Below, in pieces: positions 7,103-51,630 of a stretch of 64,000 bases of DNA; position 1 is the first letter of the stretch; every line of letters starts with the position of its first letter. The notes under the pieces were generated by a model, which saw nothing but the letters and a program-made list of their open reading frames with translations, did no database searches and was not told the origin of the DNA. The stretch is from Pelagibacterales bacterium SAG-MED17 (GTDB lineage Bacteria; Pseudomonadota; Alphaproteobacteria; Pelagibacterales; Pelagibacteraceae), in contig JACWDO010000004.1 of the NCBI GenBank assembly GCA_014654115.1, positions 1 through 64,000 of the forward strand, given 5' to 3'. A program made the position numbers and the translations under genes.

Positions 7103-7133
7103 TTATTTTTTTAGCCAAAATTGATACATTTGT
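7055..7133 (-). repeat. Native copy of the inverted repeat seen at 1-79
   Basis: This stretch spans the last codons of the TPR-methyltransferase gene and the first 16 codons of the arfA-like gene. Its perfect reverse complement forms the first 79 bases of the window. Both genes are complete here, so this is the original location and the edge copy is secondary. Confidence 0.9.
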
Positions 7134-9196
7134 ATGAATGTATCTGGGTTTTTTATTTCAAATTGATTCCAATTTTCAAGTGATGTATTTTTTAAGTCAC
7201 TAGGATAATATTTGGAATATTTCTTTTTAATTAATGAATTTGTAAATCCTAAAAATTCTAAATCATATTTTTTTAGTAATTTTGAAATTTTTGTAAGAGT
7301 ATAACGATGTTCTTGTACGTGAAAGATTAAATCTCTAAAATTAGAAGTTGAATAGAAATCATAATTATAAATAAGTTTTTGAAATTTTTTATTTTCTTTA
7401 TCGTTCTTTATAATTTCTCTACAATTCCTGATAGTAGAAATATTATTATTAATATTATGTTTTTTTAATAATTTTCTTGTTTCAACAATATGTTTTCTGG
7501 CATAATCACTATATAGACCAAGCTTAAGATAACCATTTGGCTCTAAATTGTTTAGCAATACTTTCAAACCTTCCTCGGGATCTTTTAAATGATGAAGTAC
7601 ACCAACACATTCAATAACACTGAATTTTTTATTTAGATTATTTAAATTAAGTATATCACCATGTAAAAATTTAATATTAGTGTAATTAAGTTCCTGCATT
7701 TTACGTTTTGCAAAAGATAAACTGGATAAGCTTAAATCCACTGCGAGAATATCTGAATTCTCATATGATGCATTACTAACTAATTGTTGTCCAGTACCAC
7801 AACCAGCAATTAATATATCTCTTTTTAAATTATTAGTATTTAAATTAATTTTATTTGGATAAATGTTATTATTTAATTTTGATAAAAAATCATTTTTAGG
7901 GGTCATGTTCGTGTATCTCCATCTAGGATAAGGGTTTTCCTCATACTGGTCCCTAACTTTTTTAGAAATATTATCAGAGATAGTATCAAATGAATTAATA
8001 CTTTTTTTTAGCTCTTCTTCCCTTAAGTGATCTTTTATCTGGATTAATATAAGATCATTAAACAAATTATTCTTTGCAGAATAGTTAACTAATTTATTAC
8101 TAATTATTTTAGATAAATTTAAGGGTACATAGCATGCTAAAATTGAAATTTCTAATTCATTAATATTTTTATCTTTCTCAATTTTTGTTTTTAAATCATA
8201 AATTATTCTTATCTCATCATTTGATTGAAAAAATAGGTACTCATTTAAAAAAGATTGTTGGGCAAATGAAATAATAAAATCTAAAAATTCAATAATTAAT
8301 TTTTCATTTTTATCTTTTAATAATAGAAGGAATTCTTTTCTTATATGACATAAAAATTTTTCTAAAAATTTATCCCTAAATAATGATTTTTGTAATGTAA
8401 GTAAAAAAAGTTCTTTTTTTATTGCTTTTTTTACTACATCAAGGCTTAAAAGGGACTCATTAAGATCCATGTGATGCTGTATTTTTTTTTTATTTTCATC
8501 AGAAAAAATAAAATTTTTTGCATTATTAAATAACATGTTGTGATCAATTGTGTTTTTTTTTAATAAAAAAACAAATAATTCACTTAAATCAAAACTATTG
8601 TTCTCTGCTATATTTGATAATTCAATAGATGAAAGTAAATTTAATAATGAATTTACTACACGTAAATTATTAGGAGCAATATTTAGAGATCTTTTTAAAT
8701 ATAAAAGTGACTTTTTAAAATCTCCAACTTCTTGGAAAATAATTCCTAGAACATTATATGCATCTATATTATTTGGCTCTATTTGAATTACTTTTTCAAA
8801 ACACTTTATTGCATCCTGATATTTTTTTTGATTATTCAAAATAATACCTTTATTAAAATGTGCTAAAATGAAATTTGGTTGAATTTGAATTATTTTTTCA
8901 AAATATTTTAATGAAGTTTCACGATCTCCTCTATCTAAAATTAAATTTCCAATATTAAGGAGAATGTTAATGTTATTTGGGTTTAATTCTTTGGCTTTCA
9001 TAAGTAATGGTAATGCCAAATCAAATTTTCTTAATTGGGAGTATAAAGTACCTAGATTAAAATTAGCGTCTAAGTGATTTTTATTTATATTAAGTATTTC
9101 TTTATATAATTTTTCAGCTGTTTGAAATTTTTTATTTTTATGATTCTTAAATGCTAAACTAAGTTGTTTCTTAATTTGTAATTCATCAAATTTCAC
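7103..9196 (-). CDS. TPR-repeat protein with C-terminal SAM-dependent methyltransferase domain
   Basis: The 697-residue protein has an N-terminal array of about five TPR units (about 10-190; LDANFNLGTLYSQLRKFDLA is one). A long helical middle follows, then a class I methyltransferase domain from about residue 460 with the SAM-binding motif IAGCGTGQ, the acidic AVDLS strand end, and a GVLHHLKDPEEGL post-motif. TPRs usually dock protein partners, so a protein or glycan target is plausible but unproven. The start is GTG, overlapping the upstream regulator's TGA as GTGA. The stop directly abuts the arfA-like ATG, giving an apparent three-gene operon. Confidence 0.82.
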   Translation of the reverse strand: MKFDELQIKKQLSLAFKNHKNKKFQTAEKLYKEILNINKNHLDANFNLGTLYSQLRKFDLALPLLMKAKELNPNNINILLNIGNLILDRGDRETSLKYFEKIIQIQPNFILAHFNKGIILNNQKKYQDAIKCFEKVIQIEPNNIDAYNVLGIIFQEVGDFKKSLLYLKRSLNIAPNNLRVVNSLLNLLSSIELSNIAENNSFDLSELFVFLLKKNTIDHNMLFNNAKNFIFSDENKKKIQHHMDLNESLLSLDVVKKAIKKELFLLTLQKSLFRDKFLEKFLCHIRKEFLLLLKDKNEKLIIEFLDFIISFAQQSFLNEYLFFQSNDEIRIIYDLKTKIEKDKNINELEISILACYVPLNLSKIISNKLVNYSAKNNLFNDLILIQIKDHLREEELKKSINSFDTISDNISKKVRDQYEENPYPRWRYTNMTPKNDFLSKLNNNIYPNKINLNTNNLKRDILIAGCGTGQQLVSNASYENSDILAVDLSLSSLSFAKRKMQELNYTNIKFLHGDILNLNNLNKKFSVIECVGVLHHLKDPEEGLKVLLNNLEPNGYLKLGLYSDYARKHIVETRKLLKKHNINNNISTIRNCREIIKNDKENKKFQKLIYNYDFYSTSNFRDLIFHVQEHRYTLTKISKLLKKYDLEFLGFTNSLIKKKYSKYYPSDLKNTSLENWNQFEIKNPDTFIQMYQFWLKK

Positions 9197-10259: not shown

Positions 10260-10918
10260 CCTCTTTTACCAAAAATATTAGAGCCAATTCTTAAATAAGT
10301 AGAGTTGTATTCTAACGCATTTAAATAATCTGAGGACATTCCCATACTTAACTCATTTAGATTTATAATATTATTAAGTTCACTCATTTTTGAAAAGTAC
10401 TGTGATGAGTCTTCCTCAAAGGGAGGAATGCACATTAAACCTATAACATTCAGATTAAGATCTTTAGTAAATTTATAAAAATCTAATAGATTTTCTTTTA
10501 CTATTCCTGATTTTTGAACTTCTTCACCAAGATTTATTTGTATAAAAATTTTAGGTTTTTTATTTTGTCTTTCTTGCTCCTCTGAAATTTTTTTAGCCAA
10601 CTTTTCATTATCTAAGGAGTGAATATAATCAAATATTTTTACAGCGAATTTGACTTTATTAGTCTGCAATTTTCCAATTAAATGTAAATTTATTTTATCA
10701 TTTTTAATTTTAACATCAGTCCATTTTTCAATTGCCTCTTGAACTTTATTTTCTCCATAGTCTAAATGTCCATATTCAACTAATGGTAATATATGATCCA
10801 GCTTAAAAGTTTTTGAAACTGCAATTATTTTAGGTATTTTCTCTTTATTTTTCAGGTTTAATAACTTTGAATTGATTGAGCTTTGAATTGATATTAAGTT
10901 TTGTACTATTTCATGCAT
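10256..10918 (-). CDS. YggS/PLPBP-family pyridoxal-phosphate homeostasis protein
   Basis: This 220-residue PLP-binding TIM barrel is thought to buffer free PLP and affect amino-acid balance. Visible signatures are IIAVSKTF with the PLP Lys near residue 36, the YGENKVQE segment, LHLIGKLQTNK, and the C-terminal LSMGMSSDYLNALEYNSTYLR phosphate-binding region. Its ATG lies in a palindromic ATGCAT that also contains the start of the divergent ThiE-like gene. The stop overlaps the transpeptidase-like gene in TTAA. Neighbourhood with leuS and thiE-like genes is common in alphaproteobacteria. Confidence 0.92.
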   Translation of the reverse strand: MHEIVQNLISIQSSINSKLLNLKNKEKIPKIIAVSKTFKLDHILPLVEYGHLDYGENKVQEAIEKWTDVKIKNDKINLHLIGKLQTNKVKFAVKIFDYIHSLDNEKLAKKISEEQERQNKKPKIFIQINLGEEVQKSGIVKENLLDFYKFTKDLNLNVIGLMCIPPFEEDSSQYFSKMSELNNIINLNELSMGMSSDYLNALEYNSTYLRIGSNIFGKRG

Positions 10919-11458
10919 AAAAATTTATTAATAAAATATTACTTTATAGAAAAATTTGAAAAAAGTAATATCGACTTACAAACAAAAAACACAGCGATTA
11001 TATATAGGAATTATAAAAAAAAATATAATATTAAAGAGCTAATAAATTTAAAGAATTACTGTCGAAAAAAAAGCTTAAAATTGTTAATATCCAACAATAT
11101 AAAATTATCTATTAAATTAGACTTAGATGGCGCTTATATACCCTCTTTTAACAAAGAATATCTTCATCTTAGTTATTTTTTAAAGAAGAACTTTATTTTA
11201 ATAGGCTCTGCACACAATTTAAAAGAATTTAGAATTAAGGAAAAACAAAATGTAAATCAAATTTTTTTATCCTCAATATTTAAAAAAAATAATAATTACT
11301 TAGGAATAAGTAAATTCAAAATATTTTCAAATTATACAAATAAAAAAATAATAGCTTTAGGGGGTATCTCAAAAAAAAACTTGAAATTAATTAAGCTCAC
11401 TAAATCAAGTGGATTTGCAGGGATATCTTATTTTAAGAACAAAAAAAAAGGCCCCTAA
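10913..11458 (+). CDS. Thiamine-phosphate synthase/TenI-like protein (divergent)
   Basis: The 181-residue product resembles the ThiE/TenI barrel in a reduced form: LKLLISNN early, a DGAYIPS segment, LIGSAHNL, and a late IALGGISKKNL phosphate-binding loop followed by GFAGISYF. ThiE joins the thiazole and pyrimidine moieties of thiamine; TenI relatives do not. The key pyrophosphate-binding residues are not obvious, so the activity is uncertain. I use the ATG at 10913 instead of the TTG at 10901: it falls in the ATGCAT shared with the divergent YggS-like start. A hairpin terminator overlaps the stop codon. Confidence 0.6.
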   Translation: MHKNLLIKYYFIEKFEKSNIDLQTKNTAIIYRNYKKKYNIKELINLKNYCRKKSLKLLISNNIKLSIKLDLDGAYIPSFNKEYLHLSYFLKKNFILIGSAHNLKEFRIKEKQNVNQIFLSSIFKKNNNYLGISKFKIFSNYTNKKIIALGGISKKNLKLIKLTKSSGFAGISYFKNKKKGP

Positions 11459-11472
11459 AAAGAGGCCTTTTT
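11445..11472. terminator. Bidirectional rho-independent terminator
   Basis: The arms AAAAAGGCC and GGCCTTTTT surround a 10-base loop, with T-runs on both strands. It sits between the convergent ThiE-like gene (whose TAA lies in the loop) and the porin gene, and can stop both transcripts. Confidence 0.85.
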
Positions 11473-11494
11473 ATTAAGTATTATAAACTATTAA

Positions 11495-12427
11495 TTAAAA
11501 CGCAAATTTAAAGTTTACTTCATAAGCACTGTTATCAGCAGTTGTCGCACCAGCTACGTTATTCATACTTCCGTATGAACCCGAGATAGTCATTCCACCT
11601 GAAGTGTGAGAGAAACTCACGGCAGTTGCTTCTTGATCATCTAATGTAGTTGACTCAAAATCAATTGTAGATGTGTTTAGTGATACTGAAAGATCATCAC
11701 TTACAGCGTATGATACACCAAGAGCTGTGAAATCTTCATCTGCAGTACCTGTACCGAAATCAGTTTCGTTTACTTGGTAACCTACAGATAATGCGCCAGC
11801 TGTATATTTAACCATCATCATAGATACGTCAGCAGCATTTGCAGCATCATTATTTTCACCCATTGCTGCATATACATCTAGACCTTCTATTCCAGTATAA
11901 TGTATACCATAGTCTAATGATCCATCGACATTAGCAGTTCCTGATGGAACATAACCAGCTTTAAGAGCTAAACCATCCATTACTGTATAATCATAAACGA
12001 ATATGTTATGCGTTATTGCTGAACCATTAGCAGCACCTGCTGGAGTACCCATGTAACCTACACCTTGTGCTTCTTCGTTAGCAGTTGGAGTTAAATCATC
12101 CCAAGCACCAATAACTGAAGTACTACTTCCACCTACGAATGTTAATTTACCCATGTCTCCTGTATCAATTGCAATAGCGTTAAAACCAACACCAGCTCCA
12201 CCGTCAAGCTCAATGCTATGAGTTACAGTAAAACCATTGTCCATCTCTCCACTTGCTGAGAAACTGATTGAATCAGACATTGACCAACCATTACCTTTGA
12301 CACCGTTATCGGCACCAGCTAATGTAATTTGGCTAGTTGCTGACATTGAGAAGTCTGCAGCTTGCGCTGAAGATGCTACTAATGCAGTTCCTAATGCTGT
12401 CAATCCTACTTTTTTTAGATTGTTCAT
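11495..12427 (-). CDS. Outer-membrane porin
   Basis: The 310-residue product starts MNNLKKVGLTALG with a signal peptide cleaved near SSAQA-ADF. An alternating beta-strand pattern rich in Gly, Ser, Thr and Asp follows, and the chain ends in FKFAF, the terminal Phe recognised by the outer-membrane assembly machinery. It fits the general porin family typical of SAR11. I choose the ATG at 12427, not 12463, because a strong Shine-Dalgarno-like GAAAGGAAA precedes it and the signal peptide starts there. Codons are less AT-biased than in the neighbours, consistent with high expression. The upstream region is unusually long and rich in palindromes. Confidence 0.93.
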   Translation of the reverse strand: MNNLKKVGLTALGTALVASSAQAADFSMSATSQITLAGADNGVKGNGWSMSDSISFSASGEMDNGFTVTHSIELDGGAGVGFNAIAIDTGDMGKLTFVGGSSTSVIGAWDDLTPTANEEAQGVGYMGTPAGAANGSAITHNIFVYDYTVMDGLALKAGYVPSGTANVDGSLDYGIHYTGIEGLDVYAAMGENNDAANAADVSMMMVKYTAGALSVGYQVNETDFGTGTADEDFTALGVSYAVSDDLSVSLNTSTIDFESTTLDDQEATAVSFSHTSGGMTISGSYGSMNNVAGATTADNSAYEVNFKFAF

Positions 12428-12445
12428 ATTATTTCCTTTCGTTAA

Positions 12446-12463
12446 TTGTTTAATATTAAACAA
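12446..12463. promoter_or_regulatory. 18-base perfect palindrome in the porin leader
   Basis: TTGTTTAATATTAAACAA is perfectly self-complementary and ends 18 bases before the porin ATG. It may be an operator or an mRNA hairpin just upstream of the Shine-Dalgarno sequence. Confidence 0.5.
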
Positions 12464-12534
12464 GCAATATTTACCAATTAATTGAACTACTTTATTTTAA
12501 TAATGAATATTATGTGTTTTTTTTAAATATGTGT

Positions 12535-12571
12535 TGTAAATTTACATCACCTATAATTGTTGTTTTATAGG
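12535..12571. promoter_or_regulatory. Two further inverted repeats upstream of the porin
   Basis: A 12-base palindrome TGTAAATTTACA (12535-12546) is followed four bases later by the stem CCTATAA and TTATAGG (12550-12571, 8-base loop). They lie in the about 220-base divergent region between the porin and the DUF3576 lipoprotein gene. I see no ORF in that region. These may be regulator sites; no factor is identified. Confidence 0.35.
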
Positions 12572-12647
12572 TATTATTTAAGAAATGTTGAAAATATCCT
12601 TTTAATTTTTGCATTTTTTAAACTAAAACGATTTATTAGATAAAATT

Positions 12648-22826: not shown

Positions 22827-23687
22827 ATGATTATATGGTTAGCATCTTATCCTAAGAGTGGAAATACATGGGTAAGATCTTTTATAGCTTCTTTACTGTT
22901 TAACGAAAATGATAATTTAAGTTTAAAAAATTTGTCAAACATACCTCAATTTCCACTTAGATCATATTTTAACAACTTTGTTAATAATCATGAAATTGAT
23001 GATTTAAAGAAAGTATCTTCATATTGGATTAAATCCCAACAAATAATTAATTTAGATAAAAAGGTAAAATTTTTTAAGACACATCATGCCTTGTGTAAGA
23101 TTAATAGTTCAATTTTTACAAATTATGAAAATTCGTTAGGGGTAATTTATATTGTTAGAGATCCTAGAAATGTTATTTCATCAATTAAATATCATTTTTC
23201 AAAAGAAAATTATATTGAAGCTAAAAATTTTTTATTTGATGAAAATAAATGTTTAGGTAAAAAGTTTGATGAAACTTCTAAAGATAAAAATAGAGATATA
23301 GTCACTCTAATAGCATCATGGAAGACACATTATAATTCATGGAAAAATTTTAAAAAAAATTATCTTTTGATAAAATATGAAAATTTAGTTTCTAATCCTT
23401 ATGAAGAATTTACAAAAATTTCAGAATACTTAGCAAAATTAATTAACATAAAAATACAGGAAGATAAGATACTGAAGGCAGTTGAAAATAATAACTTTGA
23501 AAATTTAAAAAAAATTGAAAATAGAGATGGCTTTGCAGAACAAGCTAAAGATACAAATACAGGGAAAACAAAAAGTTTTTTTAACTTGGGCCCTAAAAAT
23601 AAATGGCAGGAAAAATTAAATATTGAGATTAGTCAAAGTATTGAAGAAAAATTCGAAATTGAAATGAAGGAATTAGGTTATTTGTAA
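22827..23687 (+). CDS. PAPS-dependent sulfotransferase-like protein
   Basis: The 286-residue protein begins with the 5'-phosphosulfate-binding motif SYPKSGNTWVR at about residues 7-17 and has the 3'-phosphate motif IVRDPRNVISS at about 108-118. A late GFAEQAKDTNTGKTKSFF region resembles the PAPS loop of cytosolic-type sulfotransferases. It would transfer sulfate from PAPS to an unknown alcohol, amine or glycan. It stands alone on the plus strand inside the otherwise minus-strand mnmE-rho block, which suggests insertion into a conserved operon. Confidence 0.85.
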   Translation: MIIWLASYPKSGNTWVRSFIASLLFNENDNLSLKNLSNIPQFPLRSYFNNFVNNHEIDDLKKVSSYWIKSQQIINLDKKVKFFKTHHALCKINSSIFTNYENSLGVIYIVRDPRNVISSIKYHFSKENYIEAKNFLFDENKCLGKKFDETSKDKNRDIVTLIASWKTHYNSWKNFKKNYLLIKYENLVSNPYEEFTKISEYLAKLINIKIQEDKILKAVENNNFENLKKIENRDGFAEQAKDTNTGKTKSFFNLGPKNKWQEKLNIEISQSIEEKFEIEMKELGYL

Positions 23688-47286: not shown

Positions 47287-48924
47287 ATGAATTCAAACAA
47301 TTTAGATAAAAATAATATATTAAATTTATATAAAGAAAAAAATTACAATAGTTTTATAAAATTAGGATTAAAATTATTAAAAAAAAACCCTAAAAATTAT
47401 CAATTAACATATTTGATAGGTTTATCTTATGTAAATCTTCAAAAGTATGCTGAAGCGGAAAAGTATTTTGATAAATTATTATATGTTCAAAAAAAACCAG
47501 AGATTTTTTTTATACAAGCAAATATTCATAAGCAATTAAAAAAATATGATAGTGCAATAAGTTACTTTGAAGAAGCAATTAAACTAAACCCAAACTTTTC
47601 TGAAGCATATAATAATTTGGGAAATACAAAAAAGCGTGTTGGTAAAATTGATGAAGCAATATCTTGTTTTGAGAAAGCTATTCAATTAAAAGAGAACAAT
47701 ATTGAAGCATATTTTAATCTAGCAAATATATATAAAGAAAATAAATATTTTAATGATTTAATTAAAATTTATGAAAAAATATTAAGTTTTAATAAAAATG
47801 ATATAAAAACTTTATATAATTTAGGTAGCGCCTATCTATTTTTAGGTGACATACACAACGGAAAATATTATTTTGAAAAGATTATTAAAATTAATAAAAA
47901 TCACATTCCAAGCTATAGAAATTACATATCAGTTACTAAAATTACAAAGAAAAACGAAATTTTTAAAAAATTAGAGCTTTTAAATGAAGATGTTTTTTCA
48001 AATGACGATAAAATTTTGTTTTATGATGCATTAAGTAAAGGATATTTTGATCAAGATAATGATGAATTAGCATTTAAATATTTAGAAAAATCAAATTCTC
48101 TAAAAAAGAAAAACTCAAAATTCTCTTTTGAAAAAGTAGAGATAGAATTCAAAGATACTAAAACCTTTTTTGATAAAATTGGTAATGTTAATATTAATTA
48201 CAAAGATACATTAAAAAGTAGACCAATTTTTATAATTGGAATGCCAAGATCTGGCACTACACTTATAGAGCAGATATTATCTAGTCACACACAAATTCAT
48301 GGAGCTGGAGAGCTAGATTATTTGCCTAAAATTATTGATAATCTAGGTATAAAAAAACCTCGAAATCCAGAGAGTTTTTTCACAGAGATAAGAAACTCAT
48401 ACTATGATCAAATAAAAAGAATTTCTGAAGACAATTATATTATTGATAAATTACCAGCAAATTATAAATGGATTGGATTTATAGTTAATGCATTTCCAGA
48501 ATCAAAAATTATACATATTGAAAGAAACCCCATGGCTGTATGCTGGTCAAATTACAAAACATCATTTATCGATAGTGGTATGGATTTTAACTTAAGTCAG
48601 CAAGATATAGCTAAATATTACTCATTATACTTAGACACGATAAATTTTTGGAAATCAAAGTATGCTAAAAAAATATTTGATGTTAATTATGAAAATTTTG
48701 TAAATAATTTTGAAACTAATTCTAATGAAATTTTAAATTTTTTAGATTTAAAATGGGAAGATCAGATTAAAAATTATGACAAAAATATTAGACCTGTAAC
48801 AACTGCATCTTTTCAACAAGTTAGAGAGGGAATAAAAAAAAATACATCAATGGCTTGGAAAAAGTATAGTAATTATTTAGTACCTATGCAGGAAACTCTT
48901 AATAATATGAAGATAAAGTTTTAA
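47287..48924 (+). CDS. TPR-repeat sulfotransferase (first of cluster)
   Basis: The 545-residue protein has at least five TPR units over about 20-250 (such as YDSAISYFEEAIKLNPNFSEA), and a C-terminal sulfotransferase domain with the PAPS-binding IIGMPRSGTTLIEQIL at about 315-330 and the 3'-phosphate motif IHIERNPMAVCWS. The arrangement resembles TPR-sulfotransferases thought to modify proteins or surface glycans, but the acceptor is unknown. It is followed after 9 bases by a second TPR-sulfotransferase, so the pair is probably cotranscribed. Confidence 0.85.
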   Translation: MNSNNLDKNNILNLYKEKNYNSFIKLGLKLLKKNPKNYQLTYLIGLSYVNLQKYAEAEKYFDKLLYVQKKPEIFFIQANIHKQLKKYDSAISYFEEAIKLNPNFSEAYNNLGNTKKRVGKIDEAISCFEKAIQLKENNIEAYFNLANIYKENKYFNDLIKIYEKILSFNKNDIKTLYNLGSAYLFLGDIHNGKYYFEKIIKINKNHIPSYRNYISVTKITKKNEIFKKLELLNEDVFSNDDKILFYDALSKGYFDQDNDELAFKYLEKSNSLKKKNSKFSFEKVEIEFKDTKTFFDKIGNVNINYKDTLKSRPIFIIGMPRSGTTLIEQILSSHTQIHGAGELDYLPKIIDNLGIKKPRNPESFFTEIRNSYYDQIKRISEDNYIIDKLPANYKWIGFIVNAFPESKIIHIERNPMAVCWSNYKTSFIDSGMDFNLSQQDIAKYYSLYLDTINFWKSKYAKKIFDVNYENFVNNFETNSNEILNFLDLKWEDQIKNYDKNIRPVTTASFQQVREGIKKNTSMAWKKYSNYLVPMQETLNNMKIKF

Positions 48925-48933
48925 TAAATATTT

Positions 48934-50301
48934 ATGAATTTAGATCCAGTTAAAAAATTAATGTACGAACAAGATTTTATGGGGGCTGAAAAAATTTTAC
49001 AAAAAGGATTAAAAACAGAAAAAGATAAGTTTATGATTTTTTATTTTTTAGGTCTTGTCCATTTTGAATTGAGAAACTTGGATAAGAGTATTCAATTTTT
49101 CGAAAAGTCTTTAAATTTAAGACCTAATAATATCTCAGCATACCTTAAATTAGCAGTTTTATATCAAACGATGGGTAATACAGAGTCATCAAAAAATAAT
49201 TATTTAAAATCTATTGAATTGGATAGTAATCAGATCAGAAGTTATTACGGTTTATATCAGTTAAAACCAAAATTTCTTAAAGATGAGTATTATGATAAGA
49301 TAAGAAATATTTCATTGACAACAAAAGAGAATTCAACAGATCTTGCAATAAGCAAATTTTTACTTTCAAAGTTTGAAATAAGTAAAAAAAATTTAAAAGA
49401 AGAGCTAACGTTATTAGAAGATGCTCATAAAGCAATATTTAATGCAAATTTACAGTACAACAGGGAGTCTGATTTTTATTACAAAAAAATTATGCAAAAA
49501 TTTCACAATAAAATAAAATTTTTAAATTTAGATAATTCAGTAAAACAAAAATATACAAAACCGATTTTTATTATTGGCCTTCCAAGAACAGGATCTACTT
49601 TAATTGAAAGTATTATTTCTAGCGATGACAACAATTATTTATCATTTGGAGAAAGTTCTTTTTTTCATATGGGTATATTGGAACAAATTAAAAAAAAAAA
49701 TCTTTTCAATAATGATGACTACTATAATATAAATAATATTGAATTGGATCTTAAAGAATTAAAAGACTATTTATACAAAAGATATTCTCAATTTAACTCA
49801 TCAGAAAATGAAAATGAAAAAGAAATTATTGATAAATCTTTAGATAATTTTTTTAATATTGAAACAATATTAAAAGTTTTTCCAGATGCAAAAATCATAA
49901 ATTCAACAAGAAACATTTACGATAACATAGTTGCAATTTACGAAAAGCTTTTGGCCAAATTATCATGGGCTCACACAATTAAAGACATATTAGATTATAT
50001 AGACATATATTTGAGAATAATGGATTATTATAAAAAAAAATATCCACAAAATATTATTACAATATCCTTAGAAAGTTTAAATAATGACAAATATAAAGAA
50101 ACAAAAAAGATTTTTGAATTTTGTGACTTAAATTGGAATGAGGAAATATTCGAATTCCATAAAAGAGACGACTTATATATTAAAACTAGCAGTAATGTAC
50201 AATTAAGAACTGGTATTCAATCATACGACTACAATAAATATAAAAGATATTACTCTTTATTTGAGAATTATAAAAAAAACTACGTGTGGTTAAACAATTA
50301 A
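48934..50301 (+). CDS. TPR-repeat sulfotransferase (second of cluster)
   Basis: The 455-residue protein has about three TPR units near the N terminus (about 10-110, such as LDKSIQFFEKSLNLRPNN) and a sulfotransferase domain with IIGLPRTGSTLIESII at about 213-228 and the 3'-phosphate-type INSTRNIYDNIVAIYE. The TPR part is shorter than in the preceding paralogue, and the two differ enough not to be a recent duplication. It ends about 100 bases before a tRNA gene. Confidence 0.83.
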   Translation: MNLDPVKKLMYEQDFMGAEKILQKGLKTEKDKFMIFYFLGLVHFELRNLDKSIQFFEKSLNLRPNNISAYLKLAVLYQTMGNTESSKNNYLKSIELDSNQIRSYYGLYQLKPKFLKDEYYDKIRNISLTTKENSTDLAISKFLLSKFEISKKNLKEELTLLEDAHKAIFNANLQYNRESDFYYKKIMQKFHNKIKFLNLDNSVKQKYTKPIFIIGLPRTGSTLIESIISSDDNNYLSFGESSFFHMGILEQIKKKNLFNNDDYYNINNIELDLKELKDYLYKRYSQFNSSENENEKEIIDKSLDNFFNIETILKVFPDAKIINSTRNIYDNIVAIYEKLLAKLSWAHTIKDILDYIDIYLRIMDYYKKKYPQNIITISLESLNNDKYKETKKIFEFCDLNWNEEIFEFHKRDDLYIKTSSNVQLRTGIQSYDYNKYKRYYSLFENYKKNYVWLNN

Positions 50302-50405: not shown

Positions 50406-50480
50406 GCGGGCATAGCTCAGTGGTAGAGCGTCTCGTTGCCAACGAGAAGGTCGTGGGTTCGAGTCCCATTGCCCGCTCCA
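50406..50480 (+). tRNA. tRNA-Gly (GCC anticodon)
   Basis: The acceptor arms GCGGGCA and TGCCCGC pair perfectly, followed by T and an encoded CCA. The D arm (GCTC, loop, GAGC), the anticodon stem CTCGT/ACGAG with loop TGCCAAC (anticodon GCC), and the T arm with GGTTCGAGTCC are all canonical. It lies between TPR genes, 22 bases before the next start codon. Confidence 0.97.
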
Positions 50481-50502: not shown

Positions 50503-51630
50503 ATGAATACTTCAAACTACATAGATGAATTTAATCAATTAAATAAAATTATAAAAAGCTACAGCCTAAATTCTCTAAAAGATACCTTATTGTTTGCAAA
50601 TAATAGTAAATTTAAACTTCCAAATTTAAATAATATCCCACAATATCACAATATTGTAGGGCTTGTAAATTTTAGACTTAATGATTTAGAAAATTCAATA
50701 CTAGATTTTGAAAAGGCAATTAATCTTGACCCAAATTTTCATTCTGCTTACTATAATTTAGGATTATTATTTTTTAAAACTAAAGATTTAAAAAAATCCT
50801 ATAGTTTTTTAAATAATGCAATAAATATTAAAAATGACTACAAATTAGCAAGAGATAAATTAATTGAGATACTATCTTTTTATGAACCAGAAGATGAAAA
50901 TTCAAATTTTATAAGTGATATTGATAAAAAAATTAAACAAGTTCCTTATGAAATAGATTTTTCAAAAGAAATAACAGATCAACAAATTATAAATTATTTT
51001 AAGAATTGTAAAAAAGTTGTACTAAAAAATTTAGAGGACCTTTCTTATAATAAAGTTCAAATTTATAGAACCAAATCTATTAATCTTAACTGTGAAAGAC
51101 ATAAAGCAATTTTTTTTGAATATAATTCCATACCAAAATACTGTTTTGAATGTTACAAAGTAGTAATTGAGTCAAAAAATTTTTATGATTTATTAAAGAT
51201 GTCCTTAATTTTTGACCAAATAACTTACTTCCATAAGTTTAACAGAAAAAATATGATAGATAAAAAATCAGAAACTGATGTTTTTAAAAGTATTATCTAT
51301 TGTCAAAGTCTAGAGGAAGTTTTTCAAGTAGAAAACGAAACAAAAAAGATTCTTAGTATTTATTTTGATGAACAAATTTCTATTGAGAGTAAGAGAGGCT
51401 GTCATGAGTATGCATCAAAATATCCTGAGTATAAAAAAATTTTTAAAAAAAAATCAGAAATGATGCTTATGCCTAGTGAATGGTTAGATAATGAAAAGAA
51501 ATATGATTTAGAAAATACAAAAGATGGTTTTGAGAATGCAGGAGTTTCTCATGATACAATAAAAGGAATTTCTTTAAATAATTTTCTTGTTATGAATAAT
51601 TGGTTTAATAATCAAAAAATTTTTTTATAA
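50503..51630 (+). CDS. TPR protein with a conserved-looking Cys/His C-terminal domain of unknown function
   Basis: The 375-residue protein (ATG at 50503; the tracked TTG is two codons earlier) has two or three TPR units at about 45-130 (LENSILDFEKAINLDPNFHSAYYNL). The rest forms a separate domain with a repeated Cys/His pattern: LNCERHKAIFFEY, YCFECYKVVIE, SIIYCQSLEE and KRGCHEYASKYPEY. The CxxC and CH pairs could bind a metal. I do not recognise the domain, and it lacks sulfotransferase motifs. It lies just after tRNA-Gly and the two TPR-sulfotransferases. Confidence 0.7.
   Translation: MNTSNYIDEFNQLNKIIKSYSLNSLKDTLLFANNSKFKLPNLNNIPQYHNIVGLVNFRLNDLENSILDFEKAINLDPNFHSAYYNLGLLFFKTKDLKKSYSFLNNAINIKNDYKLARDKLIEILSFYEPEDENSNFISDIDKKIKQVPYEIDFSKEITDQQIINYFKNCKKVVLKNLEDLSYNKVQIYRTKSINLNCERHKAIFFEYNSIPKYCFECYKVVIESKNFYDLLKMSLIFDQITYFHKFNRKNMIDKKSETDVFKSIIYCQSLEEVFQVENETKKILSIYFDEQISIESKRGCHEYASKYPEYKKIFKKKSEMMLMPSEWLDNEKKYDLENTKDGFENAGVSHDTIKGISLNNFLVMNNWFNNQKIFL

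Follow-up and report, generated by a model that had tools for sequence, protein, structure and literature searches.

The stretch of 64,000 nucleotides analyzed here (the window) belongs to a SAR11 genome of 0.9 Mb that is 61% complete (G000) and whose relatives are named Pelagibacteraceae. The gene under study is located on the forward strand at 50503..51630 and encodes 375 amino acids plus stop, with an ATG start and a TAA stop codon; an alternative TTG start 6 bases upstream of the ATG would give a protein of 377 amino acids. It lies downstream of two TPR-sulfotransferase genes on the same strand (47287..48924 and 48934..50301; Pfam Sulfotransfer_3 with 135.6 and 94.3 bits, respectively), and then of a tRNA-Gly(GCC) gene (50406..50480, forward strand; ARAGORN), whose end is 22 bases 5′ of the ATG.

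An earlier note on this DNA had described the protein as N-terminal TPRs fused to a C-terminal part of about 240 residues without a recognizable domain. The TPRs were confirmed by Pfam matches above cut-off to TPR_8, TPR_11, TPR_1 and TPR_2, which cover about residues 47–112 (50641..50838, forward strand) and comprise two recognizable repeats (TPR_8: 39.2 bits at a cut-off of 25.7). For the C-terminal Cys4 domain (CTD; residues 135–375, 50905..51627, forward strand) the searches revealed no known domain with confidence, and the four motifs quoted in the note, LNCERHK (C197 and H200), YCFECYK (C214 and C217), IIYCQS (C267) and RGCHEY (C300), are all present.

The libraries Pfam, NCBIfam, PHROGs, PADLOC and PDB (by sequence) were searched with members and profiles from several branches of the family and gave no match for the CTD. 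PHROGs returned nothing of weight for residues 135–375, and the PDB sequence matches of the full protein fall on the TPRs only. A profile match to isocitrate dehydrogenase (E 0.013 over 48 residues) was rejected as local, and a Pfam match to Enolase_C, obtained for only 1 of 21 members, is not common to the relatives. In line with the earlier note, the domain does not match sulfotransferases: residues 135–375 have no Pfam match to PF13469 or PF00685, and the 5′ PAPS-binding motif (PRSGTT or YPKSGNT type) is absent from the window CTD, whereas both neighboring TPR-sulfotransferases carry it in the forms PRSGTT and PRTGST. Likewise, no Pfam match to the CxxCxxCC/FliB family (PF03692) was obtained, and the cysteine spacing of the CTD is C-x2-H-x13-C-x2-C plus a distant cysteine. 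Since neither membership could be established, the CTD was not placed in a known family.

Residue conservation was determined in 137 aligned CTD sequences, using the numbering of the window protein. Seven residues are invariant (137/137), namely C197, C214, C217, C300, K219, K249 and W367, and K297 is kept in 136 of the 137 sequences. On the forward strand, the first metal-type motif, C-x2-H-x13-C-x2-C-x-K, spans 51091..51159, with the codons of C197, H200, C214, C217 and K219 starting at 51091, 51100, 51142, 51151 and 51157. It is followed by K249 (51247..51249), by the KRGCHE motif (51391..51408) with K297, C300 (51400) and E302, and by W367 (51601..51603). Thus, four of the five quoted cysteines are invariant. 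The fifth, C267 of the IIYCQS motif, is kept by 75 of the 80 sequences that form the main cellular set, but most phage members have an asparagine here. In the same alignment H200 is absent from six cellular sequences, both copies from lasso-like clusters and one phage copy, and E302 is substituted in both lasso-cluster copies and one other sequence; the equivalents of both residues are missing in the lasso-cluster members, and therefore neither can be a universal catalytic residue. The essential set of residues thus lies in three of the four quoted motifs; H200 is auxiliary, and neither it nor the IIYCQS cysteine is strictly required.

Four invariant cysteines are a classic sign of a metal site. 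An invariant set of four ligands, the generic criterion for a zinc or Fe-S domain, is provided by the cysteines in 137/137 sequences, and C197, C214, C217 and C300 may accordingly be regarded as a putative Cys4 metal site for Zn or Fe-S.

An AlphaFold2 model of the window CTD reached a pLDDT of 86 and a pTM of 0.85, and that of a relative (L107, 49 sequences) was confident (pLDDT 93, pTM 0.90). The predicted order of elements is a helical N-terminal part, the C-x2-H helix, C-x2-C, a beta-alpha-beta-beta-alpha-beta core, KRGC immediately after the last strand of this core, and further helices. Strands 1 and 4 of a ferredoxin-like sheet are antiparallel neighbors. If the core is ferredoxin-like, C214 and C217 (before strand 1) would therefore meet C300 (after strand 4); it is the predicted strand order that would bring the four cysteines together in space. 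Foldseek searches of PDB and BFVD with the two good models gave no match at E ≤ 1e-3. An eIF4E fold was listed for one model with E 1.6e-3 and a probability of 0.99, yet with a TM of 0.30 and an rmsd of 6.4; this and the matches to PII/CutA, LANA and RRM (query-based TM of about 0.3 or below, rmsd above 4) were attributed to chance or to a common simple core.

More than 130 CTD homologs were found in SAR11 (patchily), other Alphaproteobacteria, Prochlorococcus/Synechococcus, another Pseudomonadota order, phage contigs and lasso-like clusters. With a CTD-only query the domain was detected in 22 of 200 SAR11-group genomes (the source genome included); of the genomes from the Prochlorococcus family 9 of 201 were positive, and of those from a further order of Pseudomonadota 3 of 48. 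The class sample (n = 385) contained one other genome with the CTD and the phylum sample (n = 399) four. In genome contigs 120 CTD loci were found, mainly of SAR11 and in addition of Prochlorococcus and other Alphaproteobacteria, and 16 contigs of uncultured phages in IMG/VR carry the domain; searches of cultured phages and of plasmids yielded nothing acceptable. A profile built from cellular sequences only scored the phage members with 39–87 bits and the two lasso-cluster members with 37–43 bits, and profile-profile comparison of the CTD groups gave 99.3% (E 5e-20). In the CTD tree a cellular TPR clade is separated from a phage-plus-lasso clade with a support of 100/100. The last approximately 30 residues, present in most other members, are missing from the window's own clade, with all invariant residues kept. 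The dN/dS ratio of the CTD among close relatives is 0.11–0.22; since the domain is conserved, shows this ratio and has four of the quoted cysteines invariant, neither the open reading frame nor the domain is due to chance. Judged by its sequences, the CTD is a constrained, widely but patchily dispersed family that is undescribed in the libraries searched.

The connection of the CTD with other TPR-borne enzymes is direct in three kinds of fusion, all of which come from one Pseudomonadota order: TPR-[CTD]-TPR-Sulfotransfer_3 (L146/L131), [CTD]-TPR-Sulfotransfer_3 (L149/L128), and GT41-TPR-[CTD] adjoining a TPR-sulfotransferase (L147/L133). Among non-redundant cellular CTD loci with enough flanking sequence, 19 of 36 have a sulfotransferase within 5 kb (the other 17 none) and 20 of 48 have one within 1.5 kb, these loci not being independent because one tRNA-Gly site is common to many SAR11 loci. 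As background for the neighborhood, Sulfotransfer_3 matches were counted per genome, and the tested SAR11 genomes (0.9–1.3 Mb) contain only 1–4 of them each. Other neighbors are a TPR-GT41 gene (L097, Pfam) and FkbM-like genes (by inspection). No pilin-like neighbors that could serve as candidate substrates of the CTD proteins were found.

In addition, the CTD gene and an adjacent TPR-sulfotransferase gene can have the same arm, with a DNA identity of 98–100% in three unrelated lineages. In G386, an alphaproteobacterium with a complete genome of 2.75 Mb, both genes, which are convergent, lie in perfect inverted repeats of 931 nt that span 373 bp upstream and the whole common 558-nt arm of both genes. 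The arms are 100% identical over 944 nt in L060, 98.2% over 787 nt in L153 and 79% over 564 nt in L150. An arm of this type additionally bears a glycosyltransferase-like end in L152 (by inspection). The use of one arm by either effector suggests that their targets are identical or alike. On this sequence evidence the CTD is interchangeable with sulfotransferase and GT41 domains on TPR arms, and its functional association with sulfotransferase/GT41 systems is strong. The role with the neighboring TPR-sulfotransferases, which the earlier note had based on adjacency alone, thus gains from gene fusions, adjacency in unrelated genomes and common TPR arms.

The G386 repeats (L148, 6769–7699 and 9801–10731) flank a segment of 2,101 nt with the CTD end of one gene and the sulfotransferase end of the other, a layout that fits either an invertible effector switch or a very recent duplication.

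The phage CTD genes lie after the major head gene region, as identified by head and portal proteins of PHROGs. In two of these contigs (L109 and L118) the CTD gene is present in two and three copies, respectively, in one head/tail module. The following gene is of the CxxCxxCC type in 8 of the 16 phage contigs (by Pfam in four, by motif in the rest); in the flagellin methylase FliB, a motif of this type binds the [4Fe-4S] cluster (PMC8598068). No sulfotransferase was seen beside the CTD members of the 16 contigs.

Two stand-alone CTD members are found in lasso-like clusters (L129/L130) together with Asn_synthase, PqqD, lasso_biosyn_B2, HPr-kinase-like and Sulfotransfer_1 genes. One of these clusters (L144) contains a transglutaminase-like B2 protein above the NCBIfam cut-off and an HPr-kinase-like protein (Pfam); three tail-collar-like proteins encoded nearby (10890–12595) are possible substrates. 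The window gene lies outside such clusters, its neighbors being TPR-sulfotransferases, a tRNA and housekeeping genes. All three kinds of CTD setting involve modified or exposed proteins or peptides.

A tRNA-Gly gene is located within 400 bp of the CTD gene in 29 fetched loci. The sites of the CTD gene are many: beside tRNA-Gly(GCC), tRNA-Met, rho, a sarcosine-dehydrogenase-like gene and others. The tRNA-Gly(GCC) site is a recurrent SAR11 islet in which TPR-sulfotransferase, FkbM-like and CTD genes change on both sides; at one such islet (L038, 3261–5138) an inserted GHKL-ATPase-like gene (by inspection) separates the CTD gene from the sulfotransferase. The rho site bears a CTD gene and sulfotransferases in L048, L052, L053 (a weaker call) and L062, and in the window genome a stand-alone sulfotransferase adjoins rho (22827–23687). 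The published account of SAR11 hypervariable region 4 includes a sulfotransferase, pilins and sarcosine dehydrogenase (PMC2217521), and some of the CTD loci may correspond to this region.

Taken together, residues 135–375 would represent a new effector domain in a system that modifies proteins under the guidance of TPR arms, with a putative metal site and a putative substrate, a reading to which we assign a probability of roughly 0.55. The CTD probably performs a yet undescribed protein modification. According to the proposed mechanism, the TPR arm would select the cytoplasmic precursor of a cell-surface protein, which the CTD would then covalently modify, beside or in place of sulfation. C197, C214, C217 and C300, with H200 nearby, could form one site for Zn or for Fe/[4Fe-4S] at the edge of the ferredoxin-like sheet, the beginning of strand 1 there lying against the end of strand 4, and the invariant lysines and conserved Arg/Lys residues may hold a charged cosubstrate or substrate. 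Phage members would modify head proteins likewise, and the lasso-cluster members a peptide. More tentatively, the domain may be the founding member of a new metal-thiolate family of protein-modifying enzymes that would place a novel side-chain modification on bacterial surface proteins, head proteins of phages and RiPPs; TPR arms would recruit it, and these would be swapped between effectors at the DNA level, in G386 possibly by inversion between the 931-nt perfect inverted repeats. The core claim of the earlier note on the window gene is supported, and neither outcome that the note had named as refuting it, a confident domain match or a lack of conservation of the Cys/His residues, was obtained: an undescribed domain with conserved cysteines was found, but the word "enzyme" in its proposal of an undescribed enzyme family goes a step further than this and remains inferential.

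The main rival reading, which we consider rather unlikely, is that the CTD is non-enzymatic and acts as a zinc-stabilized docking or substrate-binding domain passing surface proteins or peptides to a sulfotransferase, GT41 or another partner. Such a domain would account for the chemically different partners and for the fusions to complete sulfotransferase and GT41 domains, and the four invariant cysteines are compatible with a structural zinc site. However, the CTD is mostly found as a separate TPR protein, and on the common arms it replaces the effector instead of accompanying it, which would make a second substrate-binding module superfluous; moreover, two invariant lysines, the KRGC motif and the tryptophan exceed the needs of a zinc scaffold. 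It is improbable that the CTD belongs to a known domain from which it has diverged too far for the searches: the Foldseek matches to eIF4E and ferredoxin-like domains that point this way are weak, whereas the library searches from several branches were empty and neither of the two good models had a structural match at E ≤ 1e-3.

Weak fold matches to RRM (NONO/SFPQ), LANA DNA-binding and eIF4E structures, together with the basic nature of invariant residues, could indicate a nucleic-acid-binding or regulatory domain with a ferredoxin-like/RRM-type core rich in Lys/Arg. We regard this as very improbable, as none of the fold scores is significant (query-based TM of about 0.3 or below) and the genes occur in settings concerned with the modification of proteins or peptides or with virion structure. 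Hardly any weight is given to selfish or defense cargo of a tRNA-associated hot spot unconnected with protein modification; the patchy spread, the many chromosomal sites, often beside tRNA-Gly(GCC) or tRNA-Met, and the occurrence in phages fit such cargo, but it is without a PADLOC match and leaves the sulfotransferase fusions and common arms unexplained.

If the CTD is an effector of TPR-guided modification, it is a new one in a known kind of system and belongs to no known family tested. Like the window protein, the TPR-linked sulfotransferases (Sulfotransfer_3, PF13469) consist of a TPR arm and a C-terminal effector, occur at the same loci and sometimes share the arm sequence or the polypeptide with the CTD, which differs from them in lacking any sulfotransferase match and the PAPS-binding P-loop-type motif and in its order of secondary structure. 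TPR-GT41 proteins (O-GlcNAc transferase/SPINDLY type) are also composed of a TPR arm and an effector, and the L147 protein combines GT41, TPRs and CTD, but no similarity between the effector domain sequences was found. The CxxCxxCC/FliB family (PF03692; flagellin lysine methylase, [4Fe-4S]) is Cys-rich like the CTD, modifies a surface protein and is encoded next to the CTD in half of the phage contigs; by its cysteine spacing and missing Pfam match the CTD is a separate family. Two stand-alone members share clusters with lasso-peptide tailoring genes (HPr-kinase-like, sulfotransferase), but the CTD matches no described tailoring enzyme found.

In SAR11 and Prochlorococcus, TPR-sulfotransferases and TPR-GT41 proteins are encountered repeatedly in the flexible genome; among the papers searched, none on TPR-sulfotransferases in either group was found. 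A third, unrelated effector on the same arms would point to modular protein-modification systems with interchangeable chemistry, and the CTD genes in phage head operons and lasso-like clusters offer accessible routes to a possible new post-translational modification. In G661 (C21; L146 and L147) an array of about 40 kb of giant TPR proteins, one of them the GT41-TPR-CTD protein, surrounds a secreted-looking protein of 1,321 amino acids and is a candidate for a system with its substrate. Another TPR-effector protein is encoded in the window itself at 7103–9196 on the reverse strand (697 amino acids), with N-terminal TPRs and, by inspection, a C-terminal SAM-methyltransferase-like region.
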